A stretch of 64,000 nt of DNA from positions 5,143,206 to 5,207,205 of the forward strand of contig OZ038459.1 of NCBI GenBank assembly GCA_964036195.1, read 5' to 3'. The notes below the pieces were generated by a model. It searched no databases, was not told the DNA's origin, and saw only the letters and a list, made by a program, of their open reading frames with translations. The DNA is from Sphaerolaimus hirsutus. Taxonomy: Eukaryota > Nematoda > Chromadorea > Monhysterida > Sphaerolaimidae. Position numbers and translations under genes: made by a program. Of this stretch, positions 5,580-43,579 are shown in pieces (the stretch's first letter is position 1; the number at the start of each line of letters is the position of its first letter).

Positions 5580-8114
5580 TCAGCAGTAACAACTGGTGTC
5601 ACCATACTGACTACCGTAATCCAATGAATTTGAGCTACTGTGCCTCAAAAGTCCCGGCTTTATGCCATCCCAGCCATCGTGAAGTGCCAAATCGCCTTTT
5701 TCCATTCTGGAGTAAATTTCTCTGGCGATCATCAAAAAACACTCCTCGATGTTGGTACCGGCAACTGCGCTGGTTTCTACGAAACTCATTTTGTTGTGTT
5801 TCGCGAAATATTCACCCTCTTCGTAGAGTACCTGCGTTATTTTTCGTATTTTTATTATTGAAAAAAAATCGGTGGAAAAGGGTATAGTTATAGGCATGAT
5901 CGGTGATTTTTCAACGGTTACTTTAAACGTGACATTGAAAAAAACGTCTAAAACAAAAAAATATATATCTGAAAAATGGCAAAAATGTACTAGAATTATA
6001 AACAATGAATAAACGTTTTTCGAAGGTATCGATTGGCAAAAGGTAAAAAATTAGCGATTACGAATGGAACGCTCATGAATGATTTGGAAAACTGCGAGCA
6101 ATCAGGGGATAGTATATAACGTCCACCGGAGGGGATGCAGTGCGTTTTGAGTGTGAAATGGGCGAATTCGGAAATGTCTGGACATTTTTAAAAACTGCAA
6201 GAGTGCTTTTAAAAAAAGCGGGTCTGTTGAAAAAAACACTCTTTCCATAGCCAGGTGTACCCACCAATCAGACCCCTGAACCCACCCCAACTTCCACCCA
6301 CCTGTCTTTTAGCATCCAAATCACTCTTATGGCCCACCAATTGGAACACGCACCCACTGGGACTGGGCCCGCCCACGTTGCCACTGGCCTCGTGCAGCCA
6401 GTCCAGGGCGTGCTCGAAGGTGCTCCTCTGCGTGATGTCGTAGCACAGCAGCACGCCCACCGTGTTCCGGTAGTAGGAGCGCGTGATCGATCTGGGGGGG
6501 TAAGTTTGGGGTTGGGGGTAGGTTCACACGGGATTGACTTTTCGGGATTGGGGTCGAAGGATCGAGATTTTGGCCCTATTCTGGCATTCAGAGTTGTTCA
6601 CAAAGGTTTAAAAACATTCTCGGGTGCCAGAAACGTGGCATAATATAGATGAGGTTTCCGTTCGCATTTTTACTGCAAAACATCACTTTTTCACTTTTTT
6701 ATTTCCACTGATTTTTACAGGATCGAGATTGGAGTCACGCGATCGGGGTCGGGATCGGGTTTTGAAAATTTTCGGGATCAGGAACGGGATTGGCTTTTTT
6801 GGGATTTCGGGATCGGGATTGTGGTTTTGGGATCGGGACCACAATAGGGTTCAAACGGGATCCCGATCCCGGATCCCGTGAAATTCCGGGATTTAGCAGT
6901 CCCGATCCCGAAACCCCAATCCCGATACCGAAATCCAAAAATACCAATCCCGATCCCGATCCCGAAAACTTTCAAATCACGATCCCGAGAATCTCTCAAG
7001 TCCGGGATCCCAATCCCGGAAAAAATAGTGGAAATTATAAAAAGTGAAAAAATGACATTTTTGCCTGCAAAAATGTGAACGCAAACCCCCAGCGTCCATT
7101 TTATGTCACTTTTCTGGCATCCAACAGTGTTTTGAGACCTTTATGAACAACTGTGAATGCCAGAACAGTGACGAAAATCTCTATCCCTAGACCCCAATCC
7201 CGATCCCGAAAAAATGCCAATCCCGATCCCGTGACCCCAATCCCGGCCAATTCGGATCCAAATCCCGAAATCTCAAAATACCAATCCCGATACCGAAACC
7301 CCAATCCCGATCCCGAAATTTCAAAAAGTGAATCCCGATCCCGATCCCGTAAAGTCAATCCCGTTTGAACCCTAGACCACAAACCCCGAAAATTCTCGGG
7401 ATTCGGAATCCCGTCTGAACCCTAGTGGGGGAGGGACCGGGGTACACCCCCAAACGCTCCAACTATCTATCTATCCCCAGGGCCGCTCAGCTATCTATCT
7501 ATCCCACCCGGAAGGAAATGTTTTGGCTACTATACCCCGAACCCACGCCAGGCCCGAAGCGGTCCGCTGTCCATCCATCCATCTATCTATCAATCTATGG
7601 AATTGGTCATTACAAAGGTAGGGAATGGGGGTGGTGATAGGGATGGTCAGAGCTTTTTTTTTTAAAAATGTTGTTTTTAAAAAAACGCAAGCATCAGAAT
7701 CTACCTTTTTAAACCGCTACCACAACCTATAGTGCTTATTTACAAGGTATTTTCGAATAGTTATGAAATGCTAATCAGTTCAGTTACAATTTATGGCTTG
7801 ACTTTCCAGTTATAACGTCACCTACATGTCATCCTGTAACTTCACCACGGTTGACCTTGTATCAAACATTATAAAAACAACAACAACAACAAAGCGAACC
7901 TAAACTTTTCCTGACCCGCGGTGTCCCACAACTGCAATTTTATTCTCAAATCGGGTCTAATTTGCACAAGTCGGGCATAAAAATCCACCCCCACAGTGGC
8001 GTCGCAAACATCCGCACATCTTCCTTCAGTGAAATATTTCAATAATGACGATTTTCCGACCGTGCTGTCTCCAATTAAAATCAGGCGAAATTGATACTCG
8101 TATAGGGGGTCCAT
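5580..8114 (-). CDS. Rab39: Rab39-like small GTPase, three exons
   Basis: Membrane-trafficking GTPase that cycles between GDP- and GTP-bound forms and is prenylated at the C-terminus. Exons (minus strand): 7,900-8,114, 6,302-6,491 and 5,580-5,831; phases match (2, 0) and all borders are GT-AG. About 218 residues, the usual Rab39 length. Exon 1 carries the P-loop GDSTVGKSS, switch I TVGVDF and switch II WDTAGQE. Exon 2 starts within the SITRSYYRN stretch typical of Rab39 and ends after GHKSD, the Rab39 variant of the NKxD guanine motif. Exon 3 has ETSA (G5) and a DGWDGIKPG stretch seen in Rab39 tails, and ends Cys-Tyr-Cys for double geranylgeranylation. The start is the first Met before YEYQFRLILIGD. 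Intron 1 holds two nested hAT-type elements; the gene looks intact. Confidence 0.93.
6519..7424. mobile_element. hAT-type MITE with GGGATC word arrays (outer element)
   Basis: Left end TAGGTTCACACGGGAT at 6,519 and right end ATCCCGTCTGAACCCTA to 7,424 are inverted copies. The flanks GTTGGGGG and GTGGGGGA are an imperfect 8-bp target duplication. GGGATCGGGATT-type words are repeated inside both ends. It lies in Rab39 intron 1 and is split by the younger element at 6,845-7,374. Confidence 0.7.
6845..7374. mobile_element. hAT-type MITE with GGGATC word arrays (nested, 530 bp)
   Basis: Termini TAGGGTTCAAACGGGAT and its inverse ending TTGAACCCTA. A perfect 8-bp target-site duplication GACCACAA lies at 6,837-6,844 and 7,375-7,382. 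Words of the form GATCCCGATCCC fill both ends. It is inserted into a relative of the same family. No coding capacity. Confidence 0.88.
7440..7600. repeat. ATCT-type microsatellite
   Basis: Interrupted runs of TATCTATCTATCC near 7,460-7,505 and ATCCATCCATCTATC near 7,570-7,595, inside Rab39 intron 1. Confidence 0.8.
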
Positions 8115-9666
8115 TTGGAAGGCTGTGGGTGTAGGGGTTTATTTTCGAATGTGTAAAAGAAGTTTTGTAAAATCATAACTGTGTTCTATACAGAACATTC
8201 TGGAAGCATTAAAATAATGTTGTTCCCATCGAACAAAATAATTAATTAATTATTAATTAATAAAAATAATTATTATCGCAGCCAACGCAAACGCAAATTT
8301 TGCAATCATAATTTGTTCACACCAAAATTTCAAAAATTCCGCAAGTGGAGAATTTAAAAAATCAATCTATAAATGAGTTATAAAAAATCAATTTATAAAG
8401 TTAAACTTATAATAAAAGTAAATGTACAAGTGAGAAGTGAAAAGGCAAGTGACAGGAAATCGCCAAAAACGACTTTTTACTTGCCACTTCGCTTCTCACT
8501 TATAAACTCAAACTTCTTTTAACTTGTTAATCCTCATTTATAAATTTCTTTATTGCGGAATTGGAAACCAGGATAAACACACTTAAAAAACAACCCACCT
8601 CTACTGGAAGCGATTTTACTCAAATCATCAGCTTTGTATTCTACGATAAACTGTCTATTATCCACGGGACTAGCGAAAGTATCACAATGGCCGTTCATAC
8701 AAAGTTGGACCAGTGCCAAATGTCAAATTTCTGTTAAAATAAGTAAGGGTACAACATGAGCGGCGATACTCGTCTAGTATGTAAGGATATTTTCCTGTGT
8801 TTCTGCGTATAAAGTTGGGTTGATTTTTGGGAATTAAGTAATCGTGAGGAAAATCCCGTGACTATCACAAGGGCAGATTTTTCTTTATTTTGGAAATAGT
8901 ATACACAGTCGTTCTGAGACTCAGGAAAATGCAAACCAGAAGGTAATAAATGATGACTCACAGAATGAACTCAAGACACTTGACCAAACTATTCAATACA
9001 TTGTTACCAAATATCTGATTTCATAAATAATAGTTGTGGTTAAGTTCTTGCCTCTTTAACTTGTACTTTACTTTTACGTTACTCTTTAGTTTTTACTTTA
9101 CCCATAATTTTGTCCATAATACTCTTCAATCAAATGTTACAACTTTTCTGATTTATCTACAGTGAGGATGGATTTAGAAAGATGAATTTGATCTTACTTT
9201 TCCCATGTAACCAGTCCTGAGCCACAGCTGATTTTTCAAGTTTATTTGGGTCCTGTGCACATTTTTCAAGTTTTTTTATCCTTGAAGGTTGACTAAAGTT
9301 GACTGGATGTCCTGGGGCTATGCTACAAAATAAAATATTGTGCATATGAAACAAACAATCACAAACACCAATAATTAAACAAAATCATCATTGAAAGTCA
9401 CTATCACAAGCAATCACCAACAAACAAAGAACATTCAATTCACTTCAGCTGGAGCATAAGAGTCACATAAGTAATCACCAGTGACATCATCTGTTGTGAA
9501 ATTTCGGATTTTTTCTTCTCTAAATTACTTTCCATAGTTTAAAATCAACTCATATGTAAACACATACATTTTTGCACAGAGGCACATACCAGATTTGCTC
9601 AAACAATTCCTTGCTGAATGAATTTTTTGTTGTACTTTTTGAGGGGGTTCAATGATTGCATGCAAC
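8115..9666. other. AT-rich sequence upstream of Rab39, no gene supported
   Basis: Presumably holds the Rab39 promoter and 5' UTR, but no TATA box or other element could be placed with confidence. Short open frames here lack family features. A pair of partly inverted stretches rich in CACTT/AAGTG lies near 8,430-8,500. Confidence 0.35.
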
Positions 9667-10459
9667 TAGTGATGGAATGGCGCCATGGCGCTGGCGCCAT
9701 TTGAGGGCGCCAAAGGGCGCCGCGCCACGGCGCCCTTGGCGCTTGGCGCCCTTTTTCCGTGGCGCCCTTGGCGCCTGGCGCCCTGCTTTTAAAGGGCGCC
9801 AAAATGGCGCCAGCATGTTTTCAAGCTTAGTGCTGCATATATGGTAAAAAATAACATAGCGCATGCGTGTATAGTAAAAATTTGCCGGAAAAATTGATGA
9901 AGTGGTGCGAGTGGACGAAAACTTTTCATCCAATGGTTATACAGACGCATCTGACGGATCAGAAGCTGAGAATGATTGAAATTTGCAAACCCGTGAATCA
10001 ACGGGTTCAAATTGCCACAATTCCGTTTTCATCCACTTCAAGAAAATATCCATTGGAAAAATGTAATTGAAGTGAATGCATCGTTTCGTTGAATGACAAT
10101 TCACAATTCATTGTGTTTCAATTGAACGTCACACGTGACACATGAGTATGAATTCTGCAAAACATTTTTGTTGCTTGTCTGGTTTTTGTTGGAGATCATG
10201 GAGAACATGGATAAAGTTATCGGTGTGTGCACTACATTTCGGGCACACGCAGGGTTACGTACGCACTTATTTTTCCTGGCGCCATTGGCGCCTGGCGTCC
10301 TATTTTTCAAATGGCGCCATGGCGCCCTTGGCGCCCGGCGCCCTTTTTCTGTGGCGCCCTTTTTCTGTGGCGCCCTTGGCGCTTGGCGCCCGCTTTCCGA
10401 ATGGCGCCATGGCGCCATTGGCGCCTGGCGCCCTTTTTTCTGGCGTTTTTCCATCACTA
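9667..10459. mobile_element. hAT-type non-autonomous element with GGCGCC word arrays (793 bp)
   Basis: Ends TAGTGATGGAATGGCGCC (left) and GGCGTTTTTCCATCACTA (right) are inverted. A perfect 8-bp target-site duplication CATGCAAC lies at 9,659-9,666 and 10,460-10,467. Terminal arrays of GGCGCC/AAGCGCC words span about 9,678-9,812 and 10,278-10,445 and surround about 450 bp of unrelated core. No transposase is encoded. Confidence 0.92.
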
Positions 10460-10479
10460 CATGCAACCATTGACATAAA

Positions 10480-10730
10480 ATGTAAAATTAGTTCCCTGGC
10501 ATAAAATGATGATGTAAAATAATAAAAAATTGAATTTTTGAATTCGTTCTAGCTGTGGCTGACAACACTGCGTATTTGACATGATTAAGGTATTGATACA
10601 TATTTATATTATACATAAAATTTTTTAGACCTGTAGCATCATCCACACTCATACATTAATTTATTTTACAACATAATTTTTTTGTCATATTACGTCAAAT
10701 TCACGCTGGGTTGTAATCTCAGTTTTTTAG
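10480..10730. repeat. Diverged half of the GACGTGAAATGATG fold-back family
   Basis: Segments such as ATTGAATTTTTGAATTCG, CTAGCTGTGGCTGA and ATGATTAAGGTATTGAT match one arm of the palindromic element at 23,988-24,512. It is degenerate and one arm is missing. Confidence 0.55.
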
Positions 10731-12511: not shown

Positions 12512-12533
12512 ATGTATTTACAGCTGTTGTAAA

Positions 12534-13063
12534 CAAAGATGGCAAAAACTCATATTTAATATGGAAACTCATTCAGTTTCCATGTTTTTGTTTAACACGG
12601 AAACATGGAAACTCAACAATTTTGAAAAACATGGAAACTCAAATGAGTTTTTTTTGGAGAACATGGAAACATGGAAACACAGGAAATACAGAAATGTTTC
12701 TTGAGTTTTTTCAGTCACATGATTTGAACTGAACAATGTGAGTGGTAAATACAATAAATTCTACCATATCCTATCTGAATTAACAGACAGATACAAAAAA
12801 TTTCTTATCAGATCACATTTCAGATCAGAATTTGGTGCACAAATTTTCATGTAACCTTATTCATCAAAATTAGGGTAGCATTCAGTGTATAGCATTCTCT
12901 CTGTGTATAGTAGTGCATACTTACACAACGCCCCCAAAGGGGTTGCACTATTGGAGGGGTCGCTTTATTGGAGGGGGTCATACTAATAGAGTATTTATGG
13001 TATTCATTTTTGAAAAACTCAAAATACGGACAGTGTTTTTTTCTGAGAACTTACCCATCGTTA
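12534..13063. mobile_element. hAT-type MITE with ATGGAAAC word arrays
   Basis: Left end CAAAGATGGC and right end CCATCGTTA are near-inverted. Flanks GTTGTAAA and GTTGTACC agree at 6 of 8 positions. Words such as ATGGAAACTC and CATGGAAACA are repeated inside the left end. It is related to the element at 33,235-34,357, which shares the CCCATCGTT end. Confidence 0.7.
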
Positions 13064-17420: not shown

Positions 17421-17463
17421 GGGGTGTCAGTTTTTGCAAGCCTCTGAGTAGTGGGTACCTATA

Positions 17464-24822: not shown

Positions 24823-25387
24823 TAGGGTGTCAACAAAAACTTTTTAGCGGAAAACGGAAACGGAAACGGAAAAAAAATTGCACTTGCTAGAAAACGGAAA
24901 TGGAAACGGAAAAAATTTACACCTGCCGGAAAACTGAAAACGGAAAAATGAAAGCCCGGAAAACGGAAACGGAAACTGAAAAATTTGCTGAAATTATGCC
25001 GGAAACAGAAAAAATTTGCTGAAATTTTGCCGGAAATGGAAAAAAAATTGCAGAAATTTATCCAGAAATCAAAAAATTTGCAGAAATCTTGCTAGAAATA
25101 GAAACAATTCACATAATTGAGAACCTGCATGCATGTTTACCAGTTTGGCTGAAACAGAAAACAGAGAATTGAGCCAGAAAATGAAAAAAAGTTGGAAAAA
25201 CAAACAATTGAGCCAGAAAACGGAAAAAAGGTGGAAAAACTGAAATTTTAGCCGGAAAACAGAAAATGAGCCGGAAAAACGGAAACGGAAACAGAAAAAA
25301 AATTTAGCAGCCGGAAAACAGAAACAGAACAAAATTTGCCTGCGGAAAGCGGAAACAGAAAACGGAAAACGGAAAGTTGACACCCTA
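24823..25387. mobile_element. hAT-type MITE with AAACGG word arrays (565 bp)
   Basis: Ends TAGGGTGTCAAC and GTTGACACCCTA are inverted. A perfect 8-bp target duplication GCCATGAC lies at 24,815-24,822 and 25,388-25,395. Nearly the whole element is built of GGAAAACGGAAACGG-like words. No transposase. Confidence 0.92.
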
Positions 25388-25621: not shown

Positions 25622-25947
25622 TAGGGTGTAAAAACAAAATTTTTACAGAAAACGGAAATGGAAAAAAATTCAGCGGCCGGACAACAGAAAAGATTTGCAC
25701 TTGCAGGAACATGGAAACGGAAATGGAAAATAAATTTCAGCCGCCGGAAAACCGGAAATGGAAAAATGAAATTTGCACGGAATTTAACCAAAAAATTTAG
25801 CTGGAAAATGGAAAATAAGCCAGGAAAATGGAAACGTAAACGGGAAAAAATTCCGTGGCCGGAAAACGGGAAAAAAATCAGCAACCAGAAAATGGAAAAA
25901 ATTTGCTTTTGGAAAACGGAAACCGAGAACGGAAATTTGACACCCTA
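25622..25947. mobile_element. hAT-type MITE with AAACGG words (326 bp)
   Basis: Ends TAGGGTGTAAAAAC and TTTGACACCCTA. Flanks ATCAAGAC and ATCAACAC agree at 7 of 8 bases. A shorter relative of the element 235 bp to its left, made of GGAAAATGGAAA/GGAAAACGG words. Confidence 0.87.
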
Positions 25948-26420: not shown

Positions 26421-26584
26421 ACAATATAATGATATAAAGATGATTTGACAATGGGGCCACACACACTGAAACTGAAAATTTCTGCATACCACATTTTCAA
26501 CTGCCAAATCCAAACCGGAAAATTTATGTTTGGATGGGTTTTTCAGTAGGTTTTTGTAGGTATACTATAGGTGTTTTGACCCTG

Positions 26585-26797
26585 TGGCGCTGGCGCCATT
26601 TAAGGGCGCCAAAGCGCGCTGCGCCATGGCGCCAGTGGCGCTTGGCGCCCTTTTCCTGTGGTCCCTGGCGCCTGGCGCTTTGTTTCAGAATGGCGCCCTT
26701 TCCGTGGTGCCCTTGGCACCTGGCGCTCTTATGAGGAATGGTGCCATGGCGCCATTGGCGCTTGGCGCCCTTTTTTCTTGCGCTTTTCCATCACCTT
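26585..26797. repeat. GGCGCC word array with CCATCACC end
   Basis: Same words as the TAGTGATGG hAT family and a right end GCGCTTTTCCATCACC, but the left end is degenerate and no clean 8-bp duplication is seen (TACTATAG/TACCATAG nearby, 7 of 8). Confidence 0.6.
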
Positions 26798-26898
26798 ACC
26801 ATAGTTGTAAAAACGTGTTTATGTTTACTCGATAAGTACAGATACTTAATTACTGTGTAAACACATGTACGTTACCCCTAAAAAAATACTGGTATACT

Positions 26899-27925
26899 CA
26901 GTGTTGTTACAATACAGGTATTTTTGGAAAATGTAAACATAAATGTAAATACCTTTTAGAATTCAGAAGTATAAATACTAAAACGTAGGGTATTTTTAAA
27001 ATACCTAGGAAAACATAAAATAAAACATAAACGTAAAAATTTTATCGAGTGCTGTCAGAGAAAAAGTTTTCACAGTTTTTACAATATTATAGATGTTCCT
27101 TTGATCTCATTCGACATTATCTGCTTACATATTTCTTAAATTTAGAATGATGGGTTTGGTATATTGAATAGTTGCCGGAAGGTGCCGGTCCCGAGCGCTG
27201 TAAAGTGTAAAGTAAAGTGTCAAATGTCATGTAAAATGTCAATCAAAACAAAAAAAAGAAAAGATTTTATAACTGAACCTTACTTTAACTTTGACACTTT
27301 ATGTTCCTTTACCGTATTTCCTCGAATTACCCCCAGGAGGTTTATTTTTTCAGAATGGAAATTTTGAGGGGGGTTGAACGAGGGGGTATTTCGAGGAAAT
27401 ACGGGAAATGCGCTGTTGTCACATTTTTATAATTTTAGATGACAGAATAATATTTTAAAAGTGATTTTCCAGCGGGGTTGAATGCCATTCTAAATGTGCT
27501 GATTAAAAATGGTTGAAAGTTTAAGAATCCAATAGACACCCCAGTTCCCATCCCACACAATAATGTGGCCCACACATTTGTTTACAGGTTTATTTCAGTA
27601 TTTTGTGAAATAAATGGGCTTCATTTAATTGAAGGGCTTCAATTGAAAAAAAAATTGAAAGTCAGTGAAATTTTAAACATGTGCCTCCACTTGCAAAATT
27701 GGCACTCTCTTCACATTAAAGCATGTTGAACTCATCATTACACACTACGTTTGTCATAAAATACGGTTCCATGTAACATATTTTTTTAATTTTCTCTGAT
27801 AATTGTGCCAGGAAAACGTAACAAAATGAAATGGTATTTTTGTAAAGCGTAAACATAAACACAAATACAAAATACCTGAATAATGGGGTATTTTGGGTAA
27901 ACATAAATACCTTGTTGCAACACTG
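26899..27925. mobile_element. hAT-type element with GTAAACATAAATAC words (1,027 bp)
   Basis: Ends CAGTGTTGTTAC and GTTGCAACACTG are inverted and typical of hAT. A perfect 8-bp duplication GGTATACT lies at 26,891-26,898 and 27,926-27,933. GTAAACATAAATGTAAATACC-type words lie inside both ends. The core includes a CCGTATTTCCTCGAATTACCCCC inverted-repeat element (27,308-27,408) and a copy of the GTAAAGTGTCAAATGTCATG repeat (27,195-27,240). No transposase. Confidence 0.9.
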
Positions 27926-28243: not shown

Positions 28244-30038
28244 TAGTGATGGAAAAGCGCCAGTAAAAATGGTGCCAGGTGCCATTCAAAAAATTGGTGC
28301 TGGGCGCCAAATAGCGACAGAGAAAATGGCGCCACGGCGCCATCTAAATAAATGGTGCTGGGCACCAAAGAGCACCAGAAACAATGATGCCAACAAACAC
28401 TTCACTGTTTCAGCCTGTATAAATATCATCACAGAAGCATTTATAGAGGAGCAACGTAGGATACCATTTTTCTGATGGTGACTCATGCCACAAAACTCAT
28501 CTTATCATGAATATTTTATTCCCAGGGGGTTATTTTTTTGTCAACTTGTTTTGAGGGGGTTTATTCAAGGAGACTTATTCGAGGGTACTTATTTGAGAGG
28601 GTACATTTTACTAATTGGGGATGTGTTACCAACACCACTCCCCTACTATACAATATTCAATAATGTGAGATTAACGTGAAAAATTTCTCAAAAATTCACT
28701 TATTCTCAAAAAAAAACACCACTCCCCAATAGATGGATGACAAAAAATTCACTTTTTTGAACTTTTTTATTAGACACTTGAAGAGATGGTTTACGATACT
28801 TGAAAGGGAAGGGTTTGATGTTTAAAGTTATGTAAAGAACCATACCTCTAAAATGCCTGCATTGCAAAATTTACTTAGGGCGAATTTTATGACATCATAA
28901 TGACATCATTGCAGGAACAAAAATTTGCAAAATTCACACTTTGAAATTCCCCCCAAGTAAATTTTGCAATGCATGCATTTTAGAGGTATGGTTCTTTACA
29001 TAACTTGAAACATCAAACGCTTCCCTTTAAAGTATTGTAAACCATCTCTTCAAGTGTCTAATGAAAAAGTTCCAAAAAGTGGATTTTTTGTCATCCATCT
29101 ATTGGGGAGTGGTGTTTTTTGGAGAATAAGTGAATTTTTGCGAAATTTTTCACGTTAATCTCACATGGTTGAATAGTGTATAGTAGGGGAGTGGTGTTGG
29201 GTTGGTAACACATCCCCAAAATTTTAGATTTATACCGCTCCCACAGCTCAAAAATCAGCGGGTGCCGGACCTGCTGTGGGACACCAAAAAAGCCACAAAA
29301 AATTTTTGCACTTAGGGCGACCCACCCTGAGTGTTGTTGCCGCGACCCCCCTGATTCATGCGAGGTAGAGGGGGGTCGCGCCAATATCTCCCTCAAGTTT
29401 CAGCTTCTGGCGCGCCCTAGAACTGGAGATAGTGTGTCACAAGTACGATCAAAAATAGGGTGCCGGACGTGACCGGGAAGGTGTTTATGTAGACGGCAAA
29501 AACTCTGTCACTGTCATTATTTGTTACCTCTGTTCTGCGTTTTGTTTTTTGGGGGGTATTTCGAGGGGGGTTTATAAACTCATAGTGTCCATTTTAGGGG
29601 GGGGGGGGCATATTTTGAGGAAATATGGTATAGGCATTCCATATTGCTTGAATAATTCCTCCCCGTCATTGTGGGTCATGTTTCAAGTTTTGCAGTTTGC
29701 ATGTGGTATAAAACAAACAACATGAACACAAACTTGCAGTGCTAGCAACAAATTACAATGGTGACTGTGTAAAATATCATCTAAGTGATATCATTCCACA
29801 GTTGAATATGGAATGATGTAACCATTCATCCCTGCATTTTGGCATGATCTCCGGCACCATCGAAAACAATGGCGCTGGGCGCCAAATTGGTGCCAGCAAA
29901 AATGGCACCAAACGCCAATGGTGCCATTCAAAAAAATGGCGCCAGGTGCCAGATGGCACCACAGAGAAGGGCGCCAACGCGCTGGTGCCGTTTGATGCCA
30001 TTTTAGGGCGCCAGCGCCATGGCGCCATACCAACACTA
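28244..30038. mobile_element. hAT-type element with GGCGCC words (1,795 bp)
   Basis: Ends TAGTGATGGAAAAGCGCC and GGCGCCATACCAACACTA. A perfect 8-bp duplication CCTGTGAG lies at 28,236-28,243 and 30,039-30,046. Terminal GGCGCC/GGTGCC arrays (28,256-28,385 and 29,860-30,030) enclose a core with a palindrome at 28,612-29,223. It is inserted into an older GTAAATAC-rich repeat that continues on both sides. Confidence 0.92.
28612..29465. repeat. Fold-back palindrome inside hAT element
   Basis: Arms of about 290 bp: GGGGATGTGTTACC at 28,617 pairs with GGTAACACATCCCC at about 29,205, with the centre near 28,910 (ATGACATCATAATGACATC). The right side continues with GTGCCGGAC motifs to 29,465 and is related to the larger palindrome at 37,350-38,990. 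Confidence 0.85.
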
Positions 30039-30345: not shown

Positions 30346-31376
30346 AAAATGCACATTACTGCATCCCATTCTGTTGTACATTGACTGATTTTTTACTGTT
30401 TGAGTGTGTTGGGATTTGGGGTCTGGGCTATGACGAATTGTTTTGGTTTTCTCGAATAATCCCCCAGTCCTGAGATAAGGGGGGCCTATAAATAGGTGGT
30501 CATTTTGCACGCATGATCTGCACATTGACTTTGCAGCTTAATAACTCAGTCATTTCTGGGCTGATTTGGATCGTTCAACACTTAAAATAATCAGGACAAC
30601 CTTCAGATTCAATTTTTATGGTCGGATTAGTGATTTCTAAATTCTGTATGCCAATTTGACCCGCTTTTAAAACATGAAAAAATATTTTATTATTAATTTT
30701 TCAAGACGTTTTTTGAACATTCTATCATATATTTGAGACAAAACGAAGTAATCTGGCCCAAACATTATTTCAATATCTTGTTCCAGTCAAAAGTTGACAT
30801 GCCAGAAGCAGCGTGCCAGGTGCCAAGGGCGCCTCGGGAAAATGGCGCGAAGAGCAAAGGGGGCCATGGTGCCCATCGCGAATAAGAGCGCCAGGTGCCA
30901 ATGGCGCCACATGAAAAAGGGCGCCAAGCACAAATGGTGCCATGGCATGGCGTCTCATGGCACCCGCAAATGGCGCCAGCGCCATGGCACCATTCCATCA
31001 CTAGTCTAGAGTATATGATAGCATGTTCAAGAAAATTATTTTTCATGTTTAAAAACCGGGTCAAATTGGCATACGGAATTGAGACATCACTACTTCGACA
31101 ACCAAAATTGAATCTGCAGGTTGTCCTGATCATTTGAAGTGTTGAATGATCCAAATTGGCCCCGAAATGTCGGAATTATTAAGCTTCATAATCCATGTGC
31201 AGATTGGCCATTCAAAATTACCACCCATTTATAGACACTTCTTATCTCGGGACTGGGGTATTATTTGAACAAACCAAGACAATTCATGATAGCCCAGACC
31301 CAAAACCTCAACATTCTTAAAAGGCATCAAAATCGGCCAATCTACAACAGAATGGGACGCAGGAATGTGCATTTCT
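30346..31376. repeat. Large fold-back element, copy A (about 1.03 kb)
   Basis: Arms of about 440 bp: CATCCCATTCTGTTGTACA at the left pairs with ACAACAGAATGGGACGCAGG at the right. Both arms contain the CTCGAATAATCCCCCAGTCC / ACTGGGG segment. The centre is occupied by a degenerate GGCGCC array (about 30,800-31,010) ending CCATCACTA. Copy B is at 35,128-36,273. Confidence 0.87.
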
Positions 31377-31489
31377 ATGAATACATGAAAAACATACACT
31401 AATGAGTTTACACCAAAATATTTACATGAAACGTTACAAATACAATAGAAATAATATACACACTAAATCGCTTTTACCATTCATTTCAC

Positions 31490-32143: not shown

Positions 32144-32877
32144 TAGGGTTGGGACGATACGACTTTTCGATATCGATATTCGATATTCGATATATTTTTC
32201 TGAAACTCGATATTCGATATCGATACGATATGGACCCTCGATATCGATATTCGATATTCGATATTAAAAAATGCTCGATATTCGATATCGATATTTCGAT
32301 ATTTTGCTTTTGGTATAGCAGGGCATATCTCATTTGGCATATTGCATTTCCATTTTATCACAAACCCAACTGATCATCTCTACTGAAAAGTAGATGATAC
32401 AAATTTAAATGGCACACAATGATCAAAATGAGAGAATGATTTAAAAATGTGACAGATATGGTAAGGAAAAGGTGCCAGCCCCATTTATAGGTGCCATGCC
32501 ATTGTGCCATTGATGTTCCCATGGTGTAAGTAGCTATTGAACATACATATACTCTTATGTGAACATCTGAGAGTGCATTTGCACATGATTTGATGCTGCC
32601 GCAAGTGCTGAAACAAAAATACCTGTCATGTGCACACTTCCGCGCAAAATTTGTTAAAATTGCTTATGAAATCGCCTTCTAAAAGTGCCATTTCTGGTTT
32701 ATTTGAAGTCAGGCCTAGGGAGTATAGAATATCGAAAATATCGAAAAAATGGTCGATATTCGATATCGATATTCGATATTTTTTAAAAATTTTCGATATC
32801 GATATTCGATATTCGATATGAAAAAATAGTCGATATCCGATATTCGATATTCGATACGATATATCGTCCCAACCCTA
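32144..32877. mobile_element. hAT-type element with GATATCGATATTC word arrays (734 bp)
   Basis: Ends TAGGGTTGGGACGATACGA and ATATCGTCCCAACCCTA are inverted. A perfect 8-bp duplication CCTTTCAG lies at 32,136-32,143 and 32,878-32,885. Long runs of CGATATTCGATATCGATAT lie inside each end (32,165-32,305 and 32,725-32,870). The core (about 400 bp) is unrelated; no transposase. Confidence 0.93.
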
Positions 32878-33234: not shown

Positions 33235-34357
33235 CAACGATGGAAAAAAACACAGAAATTGAACACAGAAACTCATTGAGTTTCTGTGTTTTTGTTTTAC
33301 ACAGAAACACGGAAACTCATAAATTTTGAAAAACTCAAAACTCAAATGAGTTTTTTTTGGAGAACACAGAAACACAGAAACACGGAAACACAGAAAAGTT
33401 TTTTGAGTTTCTGTGTTTTTTCAGCGAAGCGGTTGAATGCACATTAATTCAGTTAAACTAAACAAGATAAGATAAGCATCTATACTATGTAAATATGTAT
33501 TCATATTTTATAATGGTACGGAAAATAAATTCAAGATGGCATGCACATCTCATGGTGGATTTGACAATTGAAGTTTCGACATTTAAGTATACCTTATTAC
33601 CTTGAATTAACCCCCCCCCCCCTCAAAATGGACTGGTGAAATAATAAGCCCCGCCCCCCTCGAAATACCCCCCTCTGGGATGATGTACATCATGTATCCA
33701 ATGTACATGATGTATTTATTACTGCTTATTTGCATCGCAGCTACACAGACTGTACTAGGTTGTGTAGCTATCTACATGTTTATTTCAAATATATCCTGTT
33801 TGTATGCATTTATAACCTGTTTTGGGTATGTAAATGCCTACTATTTTCTATGATCCTTACAACACTTTCTGAAGCAATAATAATGCCCATAGGGGTATTT
33901 CGAGGTAATATGGTAGTTGTAGTTCAAATCAATTCCATAGTCTTTCATACAGTGCACATCAATTGAAGAATTTTGGAGTACTGCGTAAATTGTCATTTCT
34001 GGGCATTTTGTTGCTGGTGTTGTGATGTTGATGTCCTCGTTGAGGACATTTTTATGGACTTTTTTGACACTTGAATGAATACACAAATGTTATGTGGGGT
34101 TAAAACATGTGCAAAACCAATATTTTATAAGACAACCACTGTTTCCAGATCGAAATGCTGTAAATCAAAAAAAATTTGGGGGAAAACTCGAGTTTTTTAG
34201 AAGAAACTCAAAAAACTTGAGTTTTTACATAAAACACATAAATAAAAACAGAGTTACTCAAGTTTTTTTTCAAGAAAAAAACTCAAAACACAGGTATTCA
34301 TTTTTGAAAAACTCAAAACACAGAAAGTGTTTTTTTTGGAGAACTTACCCATCGTTG
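33235..34357. mobile_element. hAT-type element with CACAGAAAC words (1,123 bp)
   Basis: Ends CAACGATGGAA and CCATCGTTG are inverted. A perfect 8-bp duplication AATATACC lies at 33,227-33,234 and 34,358-34,365. Inside the ends are arrays of AAACACAGAAACTC/GAGTTTCTGTGT words and GAGTTTTTT/AAAAACTC. The core includes CCGTATTTCCTCGAAT-type remnants (33,595-33,680). Confidence 0.92.
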
Positions 34358-34420
34358 AATATACCTTTTGTTGCTTCAATTACGAAATTGGTATTCTAGG
34401 TATCTTTTGATTTATCTATG

Positions 34421-36420
34421 CATAGCTGTTAAAACGTATTTACGTTTACTCGATAATTATGGATACTCGAGTACTGCGTAAATACGTTTACATTTCCTCG
34501 CCAAAAAAATACCAGTACTCACTTACTCGCGTACTTTATGAAAATACGCGAGTACACAAAACGTATTTTTAGGAGACAGAAAATGTCATTTTGCCAAACA
34601 GAAAGTGACAAACATAAGACATTTTCTTAAGAAATACTTAGCAGGAGAGAAAAACACATCTTTTTGTATATCAGAATAAAAATTCGAAAAATACTGACTT
34701 TTTTCTGAGAAAAATACTAATTTTGACATTTTCTGTGACAATTTTTACGTTTTTCACGTTTTCTCCAGAAAAAAATCTCGTTTTTACGTTTTTTCTGAAA
34801 AAAAATATTTTACTCACGTTTTACGCAGTGTAAAAGGATTAGGTTGTAAACTAAATAAGTTTAATTTTTTTGCGGTCTCACATATACTCGGCGGACACGA
34901 TACTCTGCCCTCGCACTGATTTATGTTTCGCGTTGGAAGCGTGCCAATTATCATTAAATCATGCTATTTCCGTAAAAAGATGAAAAAATTCATCGATGTG
35001 AATGTTTATGAATAACATTATAACAACAATCAATTTTGTCATATTTTAATGAAACTCGCATGCGTTAACGATCGTTGGCACACTTCCAGCCGGAACCACA
35101 CGTGCAAGATGTACAGTAACCGGAGTATACACATACATTCATCTGTTGTACATTGGCCGATTTTGATGTCGTTTGAGTATGCTGGGGTTTGGGGTCTGTG
35201 CTATGACGAATTGTTTTGGTTTGCTTGAATAATCCCCCAGTCCCGATATAAGGGGGGTCTATAAAAAGGTGGTCATTTTGTGTAGTCGATCTGTACATTG
35301 ACTTTGAAGCTTAATAACTTGGCCATTTCTGGGCCGATTTAGATCGTTCAACAATTAAAATGATCAGCACAACCTGCAGATTGAATTTTTGTTGTCAGAT
35401 ATGTGATGTCTAAATTCCGTATGCCGATTTGACCCAGTTTTTGAACACGAAAAAAATTGCAAAAATAATTTTTCAACACAGGTTTTTTAAACATGCTATC
35501 ATATACTTTAGACAAAAAGAATAAATCTGGACCAAAAATTATTTCAAAATCTCTTTCTATTCAAAAGTTATGTACTGCATTTCAAACTTCCACCACCAAA
35601 CCAAAAATATTCATTACCGCATGAAGAACAAAGCATGCAAATTCAACACTCTACATCTCGGCCATTTCTCAGCCGATTTTCATCTATTTATGAATACTGA
35701 AAATGATCATAATGACCTGTAGATTTCATTTTTATGTTCTGATTATCTGTATGCACTGTTCTTCATGTGGTTATTTTATGAGTGGGGGGTGAAAGTTCAA
35801 AGTGCTATAACTTTTGAGTGGAAGGAGATATTGAAATAATTTTTGTGCCAGATTTATCCTTTTTGCTTAAAGTATATGGTAGCATGTTTTTTATCGTGTT
35901 CAAAAGTATATGGTAGCAGAAAAAAATTTTTTTCGTGTTCAAAAACCGGGTCAAATCGGCATACAGAATTTAGACATCATTAATCCAACCACAAAAATTG
36001 AATCTGCAGGTTGTCCTGATCATTTTAAGTGTTGAACGATCCGAATCAGCCCAGAAATGGCCCAGTTACTAAGCTTCAAAGTCAATGTGCAGATCATCCG
36101 TGAAAAATGACCGCCTTTTTATAGACCCCCTTAACTCGGGACTGGGGGGGGGGGGAGTTTTTCGAGCAAACCAAAACATTTTATAATAGCTCAGACCCCA
36201 AACCCTAACATACTCGAACGGCATCAAAATCGGCCATTGTACAACAGAATGGGACGCATGAATGTATGTGTATGTGCAATCGCAAAAAATCAAACTTATT
36301 TAGTTTACAACCTGATACTTTAAAAATACTTTACGTTTTCTGTACTCAGGGGTGAGTAACAGAAAAATACTTTACGTTTACGTTTACTTTAAAAAAGGTT
36401 CAGTACTTTTAACAACTCTG
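34421..36420. mobile_element. hAT-type element with ACGTTTACTCG words (2.0 kb)
   Basis: Left end CATAGCTGTTAAAACGTA, right end TACTTTTAACAACTCTG (inverted with mismatches). Flanks TATCTATG and GATTTATG agree at 6 of 8. Words such as AAATACGTTTAC and TTTACGTTTACG lie inside both ends. It encloses fold-back copy B (35,128-36,273). A related left end lies near 26,805. Confidence 0.72.
35128..36273. repeat. Large fold-back element, copy B (about 1.15 kb)
   Basis: Arms of about 480 bp matching copy A at 30,346-31,376. Both arms carry the GACGAATTGTTTTGGTTTGC / AATAATCCCCCAGTCC segment, and AATCTGCAGGTTGTCCTGAT in the right arm pairs with the left. The centre holds about 180 bp not seen in copy A (35,590-35,790). 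Confidence 0.86.
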
Positions 36421-36988: not shown

Positions 36989-37349
36989 TAGTGATGGAAT
37001 GGCGCCATTGGCGCTTGGCGCCCATTTCTGTGGCGCCATCTGGCGCCTGGCTCCATTTTTTCGAATGGCGCCATGGCGCCCTTGGCGCCATTTTCGCTGG
37101 CGCCAATTTGGTATATGGTATTTAATGGAAATATGGTAAAACTCGGCGGACATGAAACGAATCAGTGATTCGGCCCTTGGTTACCAATGACGTATGTTTT
37201 TTTAATTTTAACTTGAATGGACGGATTCCATTCGGTTCACAATAGATTTGATTCAATCCGACTTTTTATGCAAGAACAATATGAGTTTGATCGACAAATC
37301 GTTTTAGAAAGTCGGATTGTAAGGTCTTAGGTAGGATCTCATCGTCGCA

Positions 37350-38990
37350 GCCCCGACAAATTCCTGTAAAAACGAACGTAAACTGCGTTCGGATCAAGTC
37401 CGGCAGTCACTTTTTCAACGGACGTCTGACGCTATAACTCGCGCTATGGGGGGAGTTAAGGGCTGAAATTTTGTGGGAATATAGCCGACGTTCCCCCACT
37501 ACTATACACCAACGTAGATGCGACGGCGACCCGTTTTAGTGTGGGTCGCCGTATATGCAAAAAATATTGTGCGGTTTTCGTTGTCCGGATCAAGTCCGGC
37601 ACCCAGTGGTTCTTCACCACTTCGGGTGCAGTACTCCAGATACATTAAGTGCCGCTCGCCGCGTATCATGCGGTTTTTGGACGCACTGTCCGAATCCAGT
37701 CCGGCACCCGATAACTTTTTTTAGAGAGAAGTCAAGTGACCCCTGAGTTAAAACAGCAACTTGAGTTCATTATGCTCTTCTTGACGCGCCCTGAAGCGAC
37801 CACGTCCGGCGTCACTGGATGGTTTCCACCTGCACAATTGATGGGTATTTTAATTTACAGTAGATATGATAATGTAAAATTTAAAAACCATACTTAATCA
37901 TGATTTTTACAGTAAGCAGTTGTTTTTTATGTTTTACAATTCTGCAGTACCATATACCATACTGTAGAATGCAGTGAAATTTCCTGGCCAGTGCTGAAGT
38001 CCAAAACTTCTGACATCCCTGGAGTTGCATACTTAAACTACACTTAAAATCGATTTTTTGTTAGGCACTTTAAAAGTTGGTTTAGGATGCCCTCTTGGGG
38101 AAGGTTTAAGGTATAAAGTTGCGTAAAAGACCTTTCCCCAAAAATGCCCTGCTAAAGAATTTTAATGGGGGTCAGTGTAATGACATCACCTATGACATCA
38201 TTGCAGTAGAGATTTGTACCAGAATGATGTCATAGGTGATGTCATCACACTGACCCCCATCAAAATTCTTTAGCAGAGAATTTTTGGGGAAAGGTCTTTT
38301 ACACAACTTTATACCTTAAACTATCCCCAAGAGGGCATCCTAAACCAACTTTAAAAGTGTCTAACAAAAAATTAATTTTAAGTGTATTTTTAGTATGCAA
38401 CTCAAGGGAGGTCAGAAGTTCACACTGGACAGGAAATTTCACTGCATTGTACAGTATGGTATCGTACTGTAGGATTGTAAAACTTACAAAAACGTTCTGT
38501 TTACTGTTAATATTGTGTATACTAACCATTTTTCTTCAATGAAAATCTAGGAGTGCCAATCAGGCCGGATGCGGACAGTGCGTCCATAAAAACCGCATGA
38601 TACACGGCGAGCGGCACTTATTGTGTGTCAGTGGCACTCGCCATCCTGGGTACAGTAAGTTGTGGATGTCGCCTTTAACCCCCCCCCCCAAGTTTCAGAG
38701 TCATCCTGTTCATGTATCTGGAGTTACTGCACCCGAAGTAGTGAAGAACCACTGGGTGCCGGACTTGATCCGGACAACGAAAACCGCACAATTTTTTGTC
38801 GCATATACGGCGACCCACACTAAAACGGGTCGCAATCGCATATGCGTTGGTGTATAGTACGGGGGGAATGTCGGCTATATTTTCCCAAAATTTCAGCTCT
38901 TAACTCCCGCCACAGCGTGAGTTATAGCGTCTACAGTCCATTCAAAAAGTGACTGCCGGACCTGATCCGAACGCAGTTTATATGAATTTG
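37350..38990. repeat. Giant palindrome (about 1.64 kb)
   Basis: Left arm CTGCGTTCGGATCAAGTCC (37,385) pairs with GGACCTGATCCGAACGCAG (38,955). Inner arms include TGGGGGTCAGTGTAATGACA pairing with TGTCATCACACTGACCCCCA around 38,200. Arms are about 800 bp, roughly 85-95 percent matching by eye. The spaced palindromic motif GTCCGGATCAAGTCCGGCAC recurs in both arms. Confidence 0.9.
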
Positions 38991-39074
38991 GCACACGTCC
39001 AAATTCCTTGCGTTTTATACCAACAACTTTAAAGACGCAGGAATTCTGTTCGCGTCGACAATAATGGCCGCGCA

Positions 39075-39272
39075 ATGCATTTAAGTCAACACAAGTGTCA
39101 ACTGGTAAATGGGTCGCCATTAGCGACCATTTGCAGTCGCTTAATTGGATTCCGCCGCGATTATTGGAGACGCGAAGAGAAATCGTGCGTCTTTAAACTT
39201 GTTTGCGTGAAATGCAAGAAACTTGGACATGTGCCAAGTTTGTGTATTCTCACTCGTACAAAAATCCCGTAG
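39075..39272 (+). pseudogene. Zinc-knuckle (CCHC) gene fragment inside hAT element
   Basis: A short open frame encoding CVFKLVCVKCKKLGHVPSLC. The core CVKCKKLGHVPSLC is a perfect C-x2-C-x4-H-x4-C knuckle, as in retroelement Gag or other nucleic-acid-binding proteins. A decayed inverted copy lies immediately to the left on the minus strand (38,990-39,060), where the knuckle residues have been lost. It has no plausible start or full gene around it, so it is probably captured transposon or host sequence. Confidence 0.5.
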
Positions 39273-41199
39273 AACAATGACTTCCAAAAAGTCCGCCGAG
39301 TTTATATAATATTCATGATAACATGAGTTAGTGGCTTGAGTCAATAAAATATAAATGGTATATAGCATTCGAAAAATAACCCGCGATTTATATTTTCAAA
39401 AATCACAATAAATATAAATAACCCGTCATTTATATATATTAATATTTTTCAAATTCTGAGTGATATATTTATATATATTTTTCAAATTTGGAAAAAAATC
39501 ACTGAGAAAATCACTCATTCTAGATACATTGTGGTGCAAGTATTGCACTTCATGACTAAAACATGTAATTTGTGCAAGAGAATTTTGAATTTTGCAAGAG
39601 AATTTTCTCCTGAAAATCTCTCATCTGCTCATGTACAGCATTATTGAGTTAAAATAGTGTTTGAAGCAGGTAAATATTGTGCCTAGACACACTAGTTTTC
39701 ACCATGACTTTTTTGAAAACTGAAATGGCCAAAAATGGTGACATGTCACCATACAGTTTTCCACATTAGAATGCTGTAGATGTTCAGTTTTCACATATAG
39801 CGTGAATTTCAGTGGGGTTGTTTTGACAAGTCACTAGTTTGCCACTGTGTTTACTTAATGTGAAAACTCAAATGATGACAAATGGTGATATCACCATCAC
39901 TTAGTCTTCATTATGTGTGTGACAAAGATGTAAACTGTTTTAGTAACTTTTTATGTCATCCTGCTATGAATTGTATTGTCACGTTTTAGTGTATAAAGCA
40001 TCTCTCTATCTTATAACATACTTTTCTGAAATAAAACATAACATTGAATCAAAAATACCTGCTTGATGTCATCAAAAATGATCTACAGTAATTGAAAACT
40101 CACTTCACCACTTTTGAAAGCTGGCAACACTTGGTGACATCCACCAATGTTGCCAGTTATCAAATATGAGGGACAACTGTGGAAAACTGTCACCATGGTG
40201 TCACCAAAATGTCACCAAAATTTTGCCAAACATGTAGCCGTGTGCACTGAGTTTTCACAGCTCACCACTGTTGAAAAAGTAGCTTTTTGAAACACTAGAT
40301 GATTGCATGAACTACTGCATTTCCTCTCAATACCCCCCCCCCCTCAAAATGGACACTATGAATTGATAACCCCCCTCAAAATTCTCACTCTGAAAAAATA
40401 ACCCCCCTGGGGGTATTTTGAGGAAATATGGTAAGTGAATTCACACTTAACTTCCTCGGCATACCTGGCACTGCTGCAAGTACTAAGCACCTATTTAGTC
40501 AAACATCACTGCCACAACCAGGCGCTATAGGTTCAGTGCAACATGTTTGCAGTGTAAAATGTTTTTGAAGTTGTCATTGAGGTTGTAGGTTGAATTTTTC
40601 CATTGTGATATTTGCGTGATATTTTCACTTGTCAATATTGTATGACATGAATACTGCTTGTGAAACAATAATAAATAGATTGTAGGATGTTAGAGTACAT
40701 TTTTGTGCTTGCAAATGGTAAATTAAGCCAGCAATAGCCCACAATTTTGCTTGTAATTTAAATAAACCGCAAGTGATTTTTTGTGATTTTTTTTGAGCTT
40801 AGAGTTATTTTTTCAGTGATTTAATTATATTTTCTGAAGGCCTTGAGTGATTTATATATATTTATATTTTTTCCAAGTTTGGGGTGATATATTTATATAT
40901 ATTTTCCAAACAATTGGTGATTTTTTTGAATGCTAATGGTATAGCTCATTGCTCTTCTATAAATGCTTCCATGATGATATACAGGCTGATAATAGCGGAT
41001 TTTATTGTTGGCACCATTTTGGCGCCAAGCGCCATTGTTTCTGGCGCCCTTTGGCGCCCAGCGCCATTTTTCAGATGGCGCCATTGCGCCATTGGCGCCT
41101 GGCGCCATTTTCTCTGGCGTCCTTTGGCGCCCGGCGCCAATTTTTTGAATGGCGCCATGGCGCCATTTTTCCTGGCGCTTTTCCATCACTAACCCCCAC

Positions 41200-41762
41200 C
41201 CGAATTGAGTAGCATATTTATAAAAATATTTAATGTAAATGCAGAAGTATTATCGCTTACTCTATAACATGATAACACTTCTGTCATTGTTCAGGTTTTC
41301 TACATATCAGTATGTAGATAGAATGAATAAGTAATGTAATTTTCAAAAATTCTGGTGAAATAAATGATAACCCGCCTCGAAAAGCACACGTTCAATTACA
41401 CAACCCTGCCGTCAAAATTTGCTCGTGAAATAATTAAACCTCCTGTGGTTATTTTGGGGAAATACGGTATATGCTAAACATCACATATTGAACTAAATCT
41501 GCCTAGCTAAATCAAACGAAAACCTATGGTAACACATGTTAATTTTTACAGTCAAATACTTTCCGTTTCGTATGTTTTTGCGGTAGTGAACATTTAAATG
41601 CAAATCCTGGGTTGCCACGAATTCAAAATTGCTTCATGACATAAATGTTTGTTTACGTGAAGGTCACATTTTTATTGATAAGATAAACTGTTTATTAATG
41701 TGTAATTTTTCAAAGCACCTTCACAGAAAATACGTAGTTTTGTGGGTGGGAAGAAAAAAACG
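41200..41762. other. Region upstream of the ENPP-like exon
   Basis: AT-rich; contains a CCGTATTTCC-type repeat remnant (41,345-41,470). The promoter of the ENPP-like gene should lie here but no element could be assigned. Confidence 0.3.
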
Positions 41763-42009
41763 ATGACAATGTATTCATCAACTATAAATACTTCCCTCAT
41801 ATGCCTGGTACTATTCACGACAATACAATTAAACCATGCACACAACCATGGGAGGTTTCAGCCTAAACAGCCTAAAAAAGTTATCAATCAGTGGCCAATA
41901 TTGAACCTCCAACATTTTGAGGAGAAATTCAGCCACTTGCATGCAAATTCAAATAGAAAAACAATTCTGTGGGCATTTGATGGCTTGAGACACGATTTTG
42001 TTTCACCAG
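41763..42009 (+). CDS. ENPP-like phosphodiesterase, first coding exon
   Basis: The first Met at 41,763 (a second at 41,769) starts a secretion signal with the hydrophobic core LICLVLFTTIQL. The frame ends at donor CACCAG|GTGCCA in phase 1. KTILWAFDGLRHDFV near residue 70 is the FDGxR motif of the nucleotide pyrophosphatase/phosphodiesterase family; its Asp is a zinc ligand in known ENPPs. These enzymes hydrolyse phosphodiester or pyrophosphate bonds outside the cell. The next recognisable exon (44,372-44,533) is in phase 0, so at least one missing exon of length 3n+2 is required between them. Confidence 0.75.
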
Positions 42010-42029
42010 GTGCCAGTCACAAATTCTGT

Positions 42030-42180
42030 AAAATGCCCTGTAAAATGTCAAATGTTATGCAAAGTGTCAAAAGTCATGCAAAATGCCCGGTAAAATGGCA
42101 AACGTACGTTTGCCATTTTACCGGTTATTTTACATGACTTTTGACACTTTGCATGACATTTGACATTTTACAGTGCATTT
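42030..42180. repeat. Palindrome of the GTAAAATGTCAAATG dispersed repeat
   Basis: Inverted repeat centred on ACGTACGT at about 42,105. Arms of about 70 bp contain CTGTAAAATGTCAAATG and CATTTGACATTTTACAG, followed by GGGTCTGGGACTGCC. It lies directly after the ENPP first-exon donor. Single-arm copies occur near 2,770, 27,200, 42,955, 43,615 and 44,170. Confidence 0.85.
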
Positions 42181-42357
42181 GACAGGGTCTGGGACTGCCC
42201 GCAGTGCTAACTCCCTTTCTTTTCTATTTGGCAAGCGAAGGATCGTGGGCGCCATTTGGTGTGAAATCACAGGTTTTTGAATTCTTTAATATGTAAATGC
42301 GCTATTATATTTACTTAGTAGTTGTTGATAGAACTTCACAAGGTTTGTACTCTACAC

Positions 42358-43579
42358 TAGTGATGGAAAAAGCGCCAGGACTTTGGCGCCAAGCGCCAAA
42401 AGCGCCATGGCGCTTTTCCGAACCCCAGCGCCAAGCGCCAATGGCGCCAGAGCAAAATGGCGCCAAGCGCCAAAAGCGCCATGGCGCTTTTCTAGACCAC
42501 GGCGCCAAGCGCCAATGGCGCCAGAGGATATCGGCGCCAAGCGCCAATAGCGCCAGCGCCAAAAAAATTTTGCTTCTCATATATGCGGCCATGCTGATGC
42601 ACTGCTATTAATTTGTTTTTGGCGCAAAATACATGTCAACTGCAGTCACTTTTGTTCTTGTTGTCTTGATATTTTGCAGCTGGGTGTTTGGGCTAAGCTA
42701 AGTATAGCACACCATCTGTAAAAAGTGCTAAAAAAATTTTAGGTGTTTTTTTAAATTACTTTTGGAATTAAGTTGTTTTTCCCTAAAAATAATTTTCAAA
42801 TTTTCAAATGAAGTTTTAATTTTTTTTGGAATACTTTCGATTTTTCTACTATGATATTGCAGTTTTAAGTTTTGCTAGTCACTTTTGAACACAGGATTTT
42901 GAGGTTTCAAATTTTGGATTGCCATTGTTGGAATGGCTTCAGAAAGTGATTCCACACCCTGTAAAATCAAGTGTCAAATGTCAAGAGGTAAATGTGATGT
43001 AAAATGATAATCAAAATAAAAAAGAAAAAATTTTGATTCAACTTTTGACATTCCAAACGAGGCTCAAACAAAACTGCAAGGAACGAGCTCAGTATAGTGA
43101 TTGAGCTAAAACCTATGTGAAGAGTGTTACCAGTCCGTTGAATAGTCACATAAACCCTTACATAATTCGGATTAGATGGGACAAATGTTGAATACCCATG
43201 CAATCACAAGGAAATTGTTTAAAAAGTAATCAAGAATAGGGTATGTTGATCTGGGAATACACTGACAGTAGCACATTTAATTACTTATGTAAATCATACT
43301 TAACAGGTCTTTCTGCATAAAATAATGATGAATTTTGAGTACTTCTTGGCGCTTTTTTGGCGCTTTTTAAAACACCAGCGCCAAGCGCCAATGGCGCCAC
43401 GGCGTCATAGCGCCAAGCGCCAAAAGCGCCATGGCGCTTTTCCAAACACCAGCGCCAAGCGCCAATGGCGCCACAGCAAAAAGGCGCCAAGCGCCAAAAG
43501 CGCCATGGCGCTTTTTGCTTTGGCGCTAGCGCCAGGCGCCAGCGCCAGGCGCCAGCGCCATGGCGCTTTTCCATCACTA
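42358..43579. mobile_element. hAT-type element with GGCGCC words in ENPP intron (1,222 bp)
   Basis: Ends TAGTGATGGAAAAAGCGCC and GGCGCTTTTCCATCACTA. A perfect 8-bp duplication CTCTACAC lies at 42,350-42,357 and 43,580-43,587. GGCGCCAAGCGCCAATGGCG arrays lie at both ends. The core holds a GTCAAATGTC-type repeat copy. No transposase. Confidence 0.93.

Follow-up and report, generated by a model that had tools for sequence, protein, structure and literature searches.

Arrays of short words inside the ends of hAT-type elements of Sphaerolaimus hirsutus as probable transposase sites that differ as units between sister groups

A 64-kb window of the Sphaerolaimus hirsutus genome (locus G000:C15:5143206-5207205 of a 348-Mb assembly in 762 contigs) was analysed for hAT-type elements in which dense arrays of one short word lie just inside the terminal inverted repeats (TIRs). 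Seven terminus classes of hAT cut-and-paste transposons are probably represented in the window, i.e., the whole stretch analysed, with no recognised transposase domain among their members. Positions are those of the window, and elements with an 8-bp target-site duplication (TSD) are named by the first base of the left TSD. Elements with the word GGCGCC lie at 9667..10459 (TIR TAGTGATGGAA, TSD CATGCAAC at 9659/10460), at 28244..30038 (TSD CCTGTGAG at 28236/30039; mixed words GGCGCC, GGTGCC and GGCACC), at 36989..41191 (TIR TAGTGATGGAA, TSD ACCCCCAC at 36981/41192; enlarged by nested insertions) and, with the words GGCGCC/AAGCGCC, at 42358..43579 (TIR TAGTGATGGAA, TSD CTCTACAC at 42350/43580). 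Two further GGCGCC arrays were read from the sequence, one with damaged ends and approximate limits at 26568..26798, for which no TSD was found, and one with the right terminus only at 30815..31003 (left limit approximate). The frame listing shows frames on both sides of the 42350 element at about 41706-44563, which, judged by eye, resemble exons of an ectonucleotide pyrophosphatase/phosphodiesterase gene; in that case, this element would be intronic.

The word GGGATC was found in two elements, one inside the other. The outer element (6519..7424, TIR TAGGTTCACACGGGAT / TAGGGTTCAGACGGGAT), whose flanks agree by eye at 6/8 positions (GTTGGGGG/GTGGGGGA), hosts a GGGATC/ATCCCG element at 6845..7374 (TIR TAGGGTTCAAAC, TSD GACCACAA at 6837/7375). 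An AAACGG element at 24823..25387 (TIR TAGGGTGTCAAC, TSD GCCATGAC at 24815/25388) carries one-directional words at both ends, and a second element of this family lies at 25622..25947 with a 7/8 TSD (ATCAAGAC/ATCAACAC at 25614/25948). The other elements carry the words AAACATA/AAACGTA (CAGTGTTG element at 26899..27925, TSD GGTATACT at 26891/27926), GATATCG (32144..32877, TIR TAGGGTTGGGACGATA, TSD CCTTTCAG at 32136/32878), CACAGAAAC at the left and AAACTCA at the right end (33235..34357, TIR CAACGATGG, TSD AATATACC at 33227/34358) and AAATCAC (39363..40935, nested in the 36981 element; TIR TAGCATTC, TSD ATGGTATA at 39355/40936). By eye, a damaged CAGAGTTGTTAA-type element with ACGTTTAC words (34417..36420) has flanks agreeing at 7/8 positions (GATTTATC/GATTTATG), and an apparent variant copy of the CACAGAAAC family with the word CATGGAAAC (12534..13063) has flanks agreeing at 6/8 (GTTGTAAA/GTTGTACC). 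Other inverted repeats, and segments in which TGACGTAAAATG-like words abound, lie at 23984-24516, 26290-26420 and 30100-31940 and may represent another word-array family, of unassigned kind.

The nine perfect 8-bp duplications listed in the first-pass annotation were all located in the window, each enclosing inverted ends. A terminus-free scan, which required an exact 8-bp repeat of at least three different letters and at least 10/12 inverted bases, gave 15 matches: seven of these nine elements, a tenth perfect element absent from the earlier list (the nested one at 39355/40936) and seven others that lay within word arrays or were chance-like. The two elements missed were recovered in a looser scan, which contained all nine; its rows were printed solely for ends beginning CA or TA, with many chance rows among them. 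At repeat lengths of 5, 6, 7, 9, 10, 11 and 12 bp, the terminus-free scan gave 28, 29, 9, 5, 3, 6 and 4 matches; thus, with 15 matches at 8 bp versus 9 at 7 bp, the 8-bp peak is modest without a terminus filter. Ten first-order Markov simulations gave 0 or 1 match each, and 3 matches were obtained in a control that read the right end in reverse without complementing it.

A wider sample comprised the window and 26 stretches of 10 kb covering all 28 hAT dimerisation-domain matches of the genome (27 loci, 324 kb). All inverted-end matches at 8 bp in this sample numbered 115. Ends beginning YAR had exact duplications in 5, 2, 58, 1 and 0 cases at 6, 7, 8, 9 and 10 bp, respectively, with a few of the 58 being internal or chance matches. 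Genome-wide, at least 9216 exact GGCGCC ends were found, and the first ten plus/minus pairs less than about 1 kb apart among the matches listed had nine exact 8-bp duplications and one of 7/8. A 6.9-kb span between GGCGCC ends was considered as an autonomous element and rejected, as it is a row of GGCGCC arrays in which no hAT frame was recognised by eye. The hAT superfamily has short TIRs of the YARNG type. Ends of this type were present in the TAGTG, TAGGG, CAGAG, CAACG and TAACG classes; the TAGCA class deviates at position 5 and yet has 8-bp duplications. The duplications of all families, pooled and symmetrised (n = 68), gave the consensus GTNNNNAC, with T at position 2 and A at position 7 (0.49 each). 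This matches nTnnnnAn, the preference reported for the Ac group (PMC8961557).

Word concentration was measured as counts in the ends (outer 200 bp), the interior and the flanks. The words were concentrated in the ends and scarce in the interiors and flanks of most elements, with counts of 44/3/1 for GCGCCA in the 42350 element, 36/0/0 for ATATCG in the 32136 element and 13/0/0 for AAACGG in the 24815 element. The contrast was weaker in the 26891 element (AAATAC, 11/4/3). Exceptions beyond the window were L011, with AAAAGT 8 times in the ends and 12 times inside, and L017, with further arrays inside (32/24/0). The words in the flanks of the 6837 element are due to the similar element that encloses it. 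Dense arrays inside the ends were thus present as first described, but not one word in every element: the 33227 element has different words at its two ends, and the 28236 element mixes three. In all 13 AAACGG elements with enough words, the words point in the same direction at both ends despite the inverted termini (a fourteenth had too few), and in the nine of them that carry a domain they lie on the strand opposite to it. GGGATC, ACCCGA, CGGTTC, ACGGTAC and most AARYGTA words are mostly unidirectional too, AAATCWC and AATTTTCGAATTT words are inverted or mixed, CGCGTAC is mixed, and GGCGCC and TTCGAA are palindromes.

The words were found to be tied to the termini. Arrays of six or more words numbered 124. 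An exact own-class terminus lay within 60 bp of 89 of them and a foreign one near none, and 35, including 14 TTCGAA arrays, had no exact terminus. As words and termini were learned from the same loci, the own-class matches are partly built in; the zero foreign matches are not. Thus, the word arrays do not occur equally freely with other ends. A looser control with 1-2 mismatches in the terminus assigned 106/124 arrays to their own class; the likeness among termini made this control uninformative, and exact termini were used instead. The TAGGGTTCAA class holds ATCCCG or ATATCG, the TAGGGTTGGG class ATATCG, ACCCGA or CGGTTC (one element each), the TAGTGATGT class GCGCCA or GGCACCGG, and the CAGWGTTG class four words. 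Over 64 elements, the word likeness of the two ends had a cosine of 0.720, as compared to 0.487 after permutation within class (0/10000 as high). Thus, the two ends of one element share a word beyond the effect of a shared terminus.

None of the 28 dimerisation-domain matches falls in the window, and no hAT frame was recognised by eye among frames of at least 75 residues in four of its regions (6400-7500, 9600-10500, 12400-13100 and 24000-46000). Of these matches, 20 lie inside elements with hAT ends, duplications and word arrays, the duplications of the delimited elements being exact at 16 loci and 7/8 at three; eight matches were not delimited (L016, L019, L022, L024, L028, L029 and L033). 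The delimited coding elements carry the words AAACGG, AAACGTA, CGCGTACG, GATATCG and TTCGAA. Mean domain identity was 0.71-0.93 within a word (four words) and 0.19-0.38 between words, where CGCGTACG is represented by one member and the undelimited L016 and one L028 match were assigned the neighbouring word. The domains of AAACGTA and CGCGTACG elements, both words being on the CAGAGTTG terminus, had an identity of 0.54, and five domain matches without a word reached at most 0.60 to any group. The 6.0-kb element L011 has an exact duplication, a BED finger and a dimerisation domain. This domain matched that of the Hermes transposase (E 8e-13), and the BED finger, sought in L011 alone, scored 22.6 bits (cut-off 20.6) across two manually joined exons. 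With lengths of 1.0-2.0 kb, most other coding copies are too short for a full gene. The hAT identity proposed in the first-pass annotation is well supported by the 8-bp duplications, the domains in like-ended elements and the Hermes match; the separate ATGGAAAC family proposed with it was given up (see below). Short dimerisation-domain frames are retained in dispersed 1.1-kb elements (L020, L021, L023, L030 and L032; L025, L026, L027, L031 and L034). Their pooled ratios of nonsynonymous to synonymous differences (pN/pS) were 0.48 and 0.57, on few differences, and such truncated proteins may serve as repressors.

Within the CAGAGTTG class, three groups of 3, 2 and 2 copies were aligned over the terminal 150 and 125 bp. 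Of the 16 word sites aligned, 13 (left end, seven; right end, six) read AAACGTA, AAGCGTA and AAGTGTA in the three groups, respectively. Between the AAGCGTA and AAGTGTA groups (2 and 2 copies), 13 fixed differences fell in 106 word columns and 9 in 178 other columns, and 11 of the 13 were at word position 4. The opposite-direction word at the right tip reads TACGTTT, TACGCTT and TACACTT; thus, the letter follows the word and not the strand. The interiors differ among the three groups. In order to follow the words genome-wide, word states were scored at 100 places per pattern among the matches listed; reversed-pattern controls gave 0 in these genome-wide pattern searches. Left ends with two words about 35 bp apart were found at 3282 places, and their states agreed in 94 of the 100 (AC 39, GC 25, GT 30; 33.5 expected and at most 51 after shuffling). 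Right tips with a forward and a flipped word were found at 3883 places, of which 92 of the 100 agreed in word terms. Left and right ends were joined by position within 2.5 kb, 94/100 left and 100/100 right places being entered. Of the 61 resulting pairs among the matches listed, 54 had all four words alike, and the first words were alike in 57 (20.7 expected, at most 34 in 10000 shuffles). Among the seven mixed pairs, one resembles a wrong pairing.

A second case was found in the TAGCATT class, whose word is AAATCWC. Two words were matched at 668 places, and the 100 scored by eye among the matches listed comprised 79 T-T, 18 A-A and 3 mixed places, i.e., 97 alike, with about 69 expected by hand calculation from the two state frequencies. 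For three copies, the outer 200 bp on the two sides gave ATCAC/ATCTC counts of 12/0, 10/0 and 0/14. This class is the weaker in-register case because the spacers of its two groups differ too. A third case of joint word change was dropped. With the spacer of the window copy, ATGGAAAC was found at 1/9 places, the window's own, and this copy aligns with the left end of the CACAGAAAC class. The sister pattern, with the commoner spacer, was found at 1179 places, and all 100 scored among the matches listed have CACAGAAAC. ATGGAAAC was therefore rejected as a further word family, and we read it, from these listed matches, as a variant member of the CACAGAAAC family.

The arrays are probably subterminal sites of hAT transposases, with the word replaced jointly within a terminus class under the requirement to fit the transposase. 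They would be subterminal repeats of the kind bound by Ac/Hermes-type transposases via an N-terminal BED finger, and an oligomeric transposase would locate its element through the combined effect of many sites. One transposase lineage would correspond to each word, as seen for the five words of the coding elements. Sister groups in one terminus class differ in the word at most sites of both ends (AAACGTA, AAGCGTA and AAGTGTA; AAATCAC and AAATCTC), most likely because elements were retained solely if their sites suited the transposase then present. Such retention would be expected to change the word as a whole and to leave terminus and spacers in place. The present data are compatible with selection, with exchange among words and with a founder changing stepwise.

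Known hAT systems offer partial parallels. Maize Ac/Ds has a short TIR of the TAGGG type and an 8-bp duplication. The TAGGGTGTCAAC family shares with it, by inheritance or by chance, the subterminal hexamer AAACGG, which Ac transposase is reported to bind cooperatively (PMC3260210). Host and terminus differ, however, and 2 to 13 AAACGG are present per end in the elements described here. Hermes of the housefly resembles these elements, L011 in particular, in its BED finger and dimerisation domain, and also in its directional subterminal repeats, which are reported to be antisense in the left and sense in the right end, except STR1 of the left (PMC10368747). Its reported motif is different, namely AAG(T/C), with 17 and 14 copies in the two ends and AAGT followed by AT-rich DNA as the effective site, and AAGT is bound through the BED fingers of an oligomer (PMC10368747). 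The Herves transposase of the mosquito binds one motif, CGATTCAT and its variants, at both ends, and its authors note that sites differ between hATs; the accessible part of that paper describes no in-register word differences between sister families (PMC3143072). What the present elements add to the known hAT repeats is a word that differs as a whole between sister groups, with terminus and spacers kept. No title or abstract opening in the open-access literature searched described subterminal words being replaced in register between hAT subfamilies, most subscription papers being outside that search.

Several observations weigh against this explanation. Three of the 16 aligned CAGAGTTG-class sites are off the series (a flipped left site, with TACACTT in both later groups, and right columns 30 and 70), odd words occur in single copies, one left site is ATACGTA-like in the first group, and position 3 accounts for two of the 13 fixed word differences. 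CpGs outside the words were partly lost, with two reference copies keeping 2/2 on the left and 4/6 and 5/12 on the right. Sequence exchange may have occurred, as left and right ends have short modules in common. Since the copies of a subfamily share descent, the concordances over 100 copies are not independent events; they show uniform subfamilies, not a hundred separate events, and the word changes counted are three, in two classes. In the CACAGAAAC class, no second state was found in the 100 places scored among the matches listed. The dimerisation-domain search gave no coding element for GGCGCC, in spite of its thousands of ends in the genome, nor for GGGATC, CACAGAAAC, AAATCAC/AAATCTC, AAGCGTA or AAGTGTA. 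Because no domain was found, the filing of GGCGCC, GGGATC, CACAGAAAC and AAATCWC elements as hAT rests on their ends and duplications. The earlier proposal that each word marks a separate transposase lineage is supported for the five words for which a domain was found.

Of the other explanations, neutral repeat dynamics come closest, although they are improbable: slippage and short-tract conversion would have made and homogenised the arrays, with no binding role for the words. This agrees with some arrays being near-tandem, but the words differ across both ends with little change in the intervening bases, they are scarce in the interior of most elements, and a foreign terminus was found in none of the 124 arrays. 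Somewhat less probable still is binding of the words by a host factor, i.e., a transcription or chromatin protein, instead of the transposase. Transcription factors do bind such short words. The words, however, follow transposase lineage and termini, and AAACGG is the known site of Ac transposase (PMC3260210). That CpG decay or strand-biased deamination produced the variants (AAGCGTA to AAGTGTA, GGCGCC to GGTGCC/GGCACC) is very improbable, and decay is unlikely as the sole cause and may at most have supplied mutations: AAGCGTA to AAGTGTA is a C to T change at a CpG, the 28236 element resembles mixed CpG decay and some CpGs outside words are lost as well, but decay predicts TG to equal CA, whereas the two AAGTGTA elements have 16 and 14 TG versus 2 and 2 CA, none of the 28 forward-GT right ends among the matches listed has the flipped word expected from a top-strand change alone, and neither AAACGTA to AAGCGTA (A/G) nor AAATCAC to AAATCTC (A/T) involves the loss of a CpG.

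The window has further features apart from these elements. A direct repeat of about 4.6 kb (13335-17950 and 17920-22535; offset 4585 bases, one mismatch) contains minisatellite arrays and stems from very recent duplication or from an artefact of the assembly. Long frames at 48015-54215 (+) and 57619-63628 (-) resemble, as judged by eye, two long terminal repeat (LTR) retroelements, the second apparently with a further membrane-protein-like part downstream of the integrase.

We know of no settled account of joint change in a transposase and the numerous sites that it binds, and a single mutated site among a dozen should help little. A bolder and tentative reading, a little short of even in its probability, is that the word acts as a rewritable address: it would be replaced as a whole at roughly a dozen sites over the two ends, according to word orientation, with terminus and spacers persisting, and successive words would track successive transposase specificities and thereby isolate sister families from the enzymes of one another. 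In such genomes, "simple repeats" of GGCGCC, GATATCG or AAACGG can be hAT ends and should be annotated accordingly. The sister subfamilies, which have a one-letter word difference at most sites, little else in the terminal 125-150 bp and thousands of copies, are matched natural substrates for studying binding, cross-mobilisation and the route between words.

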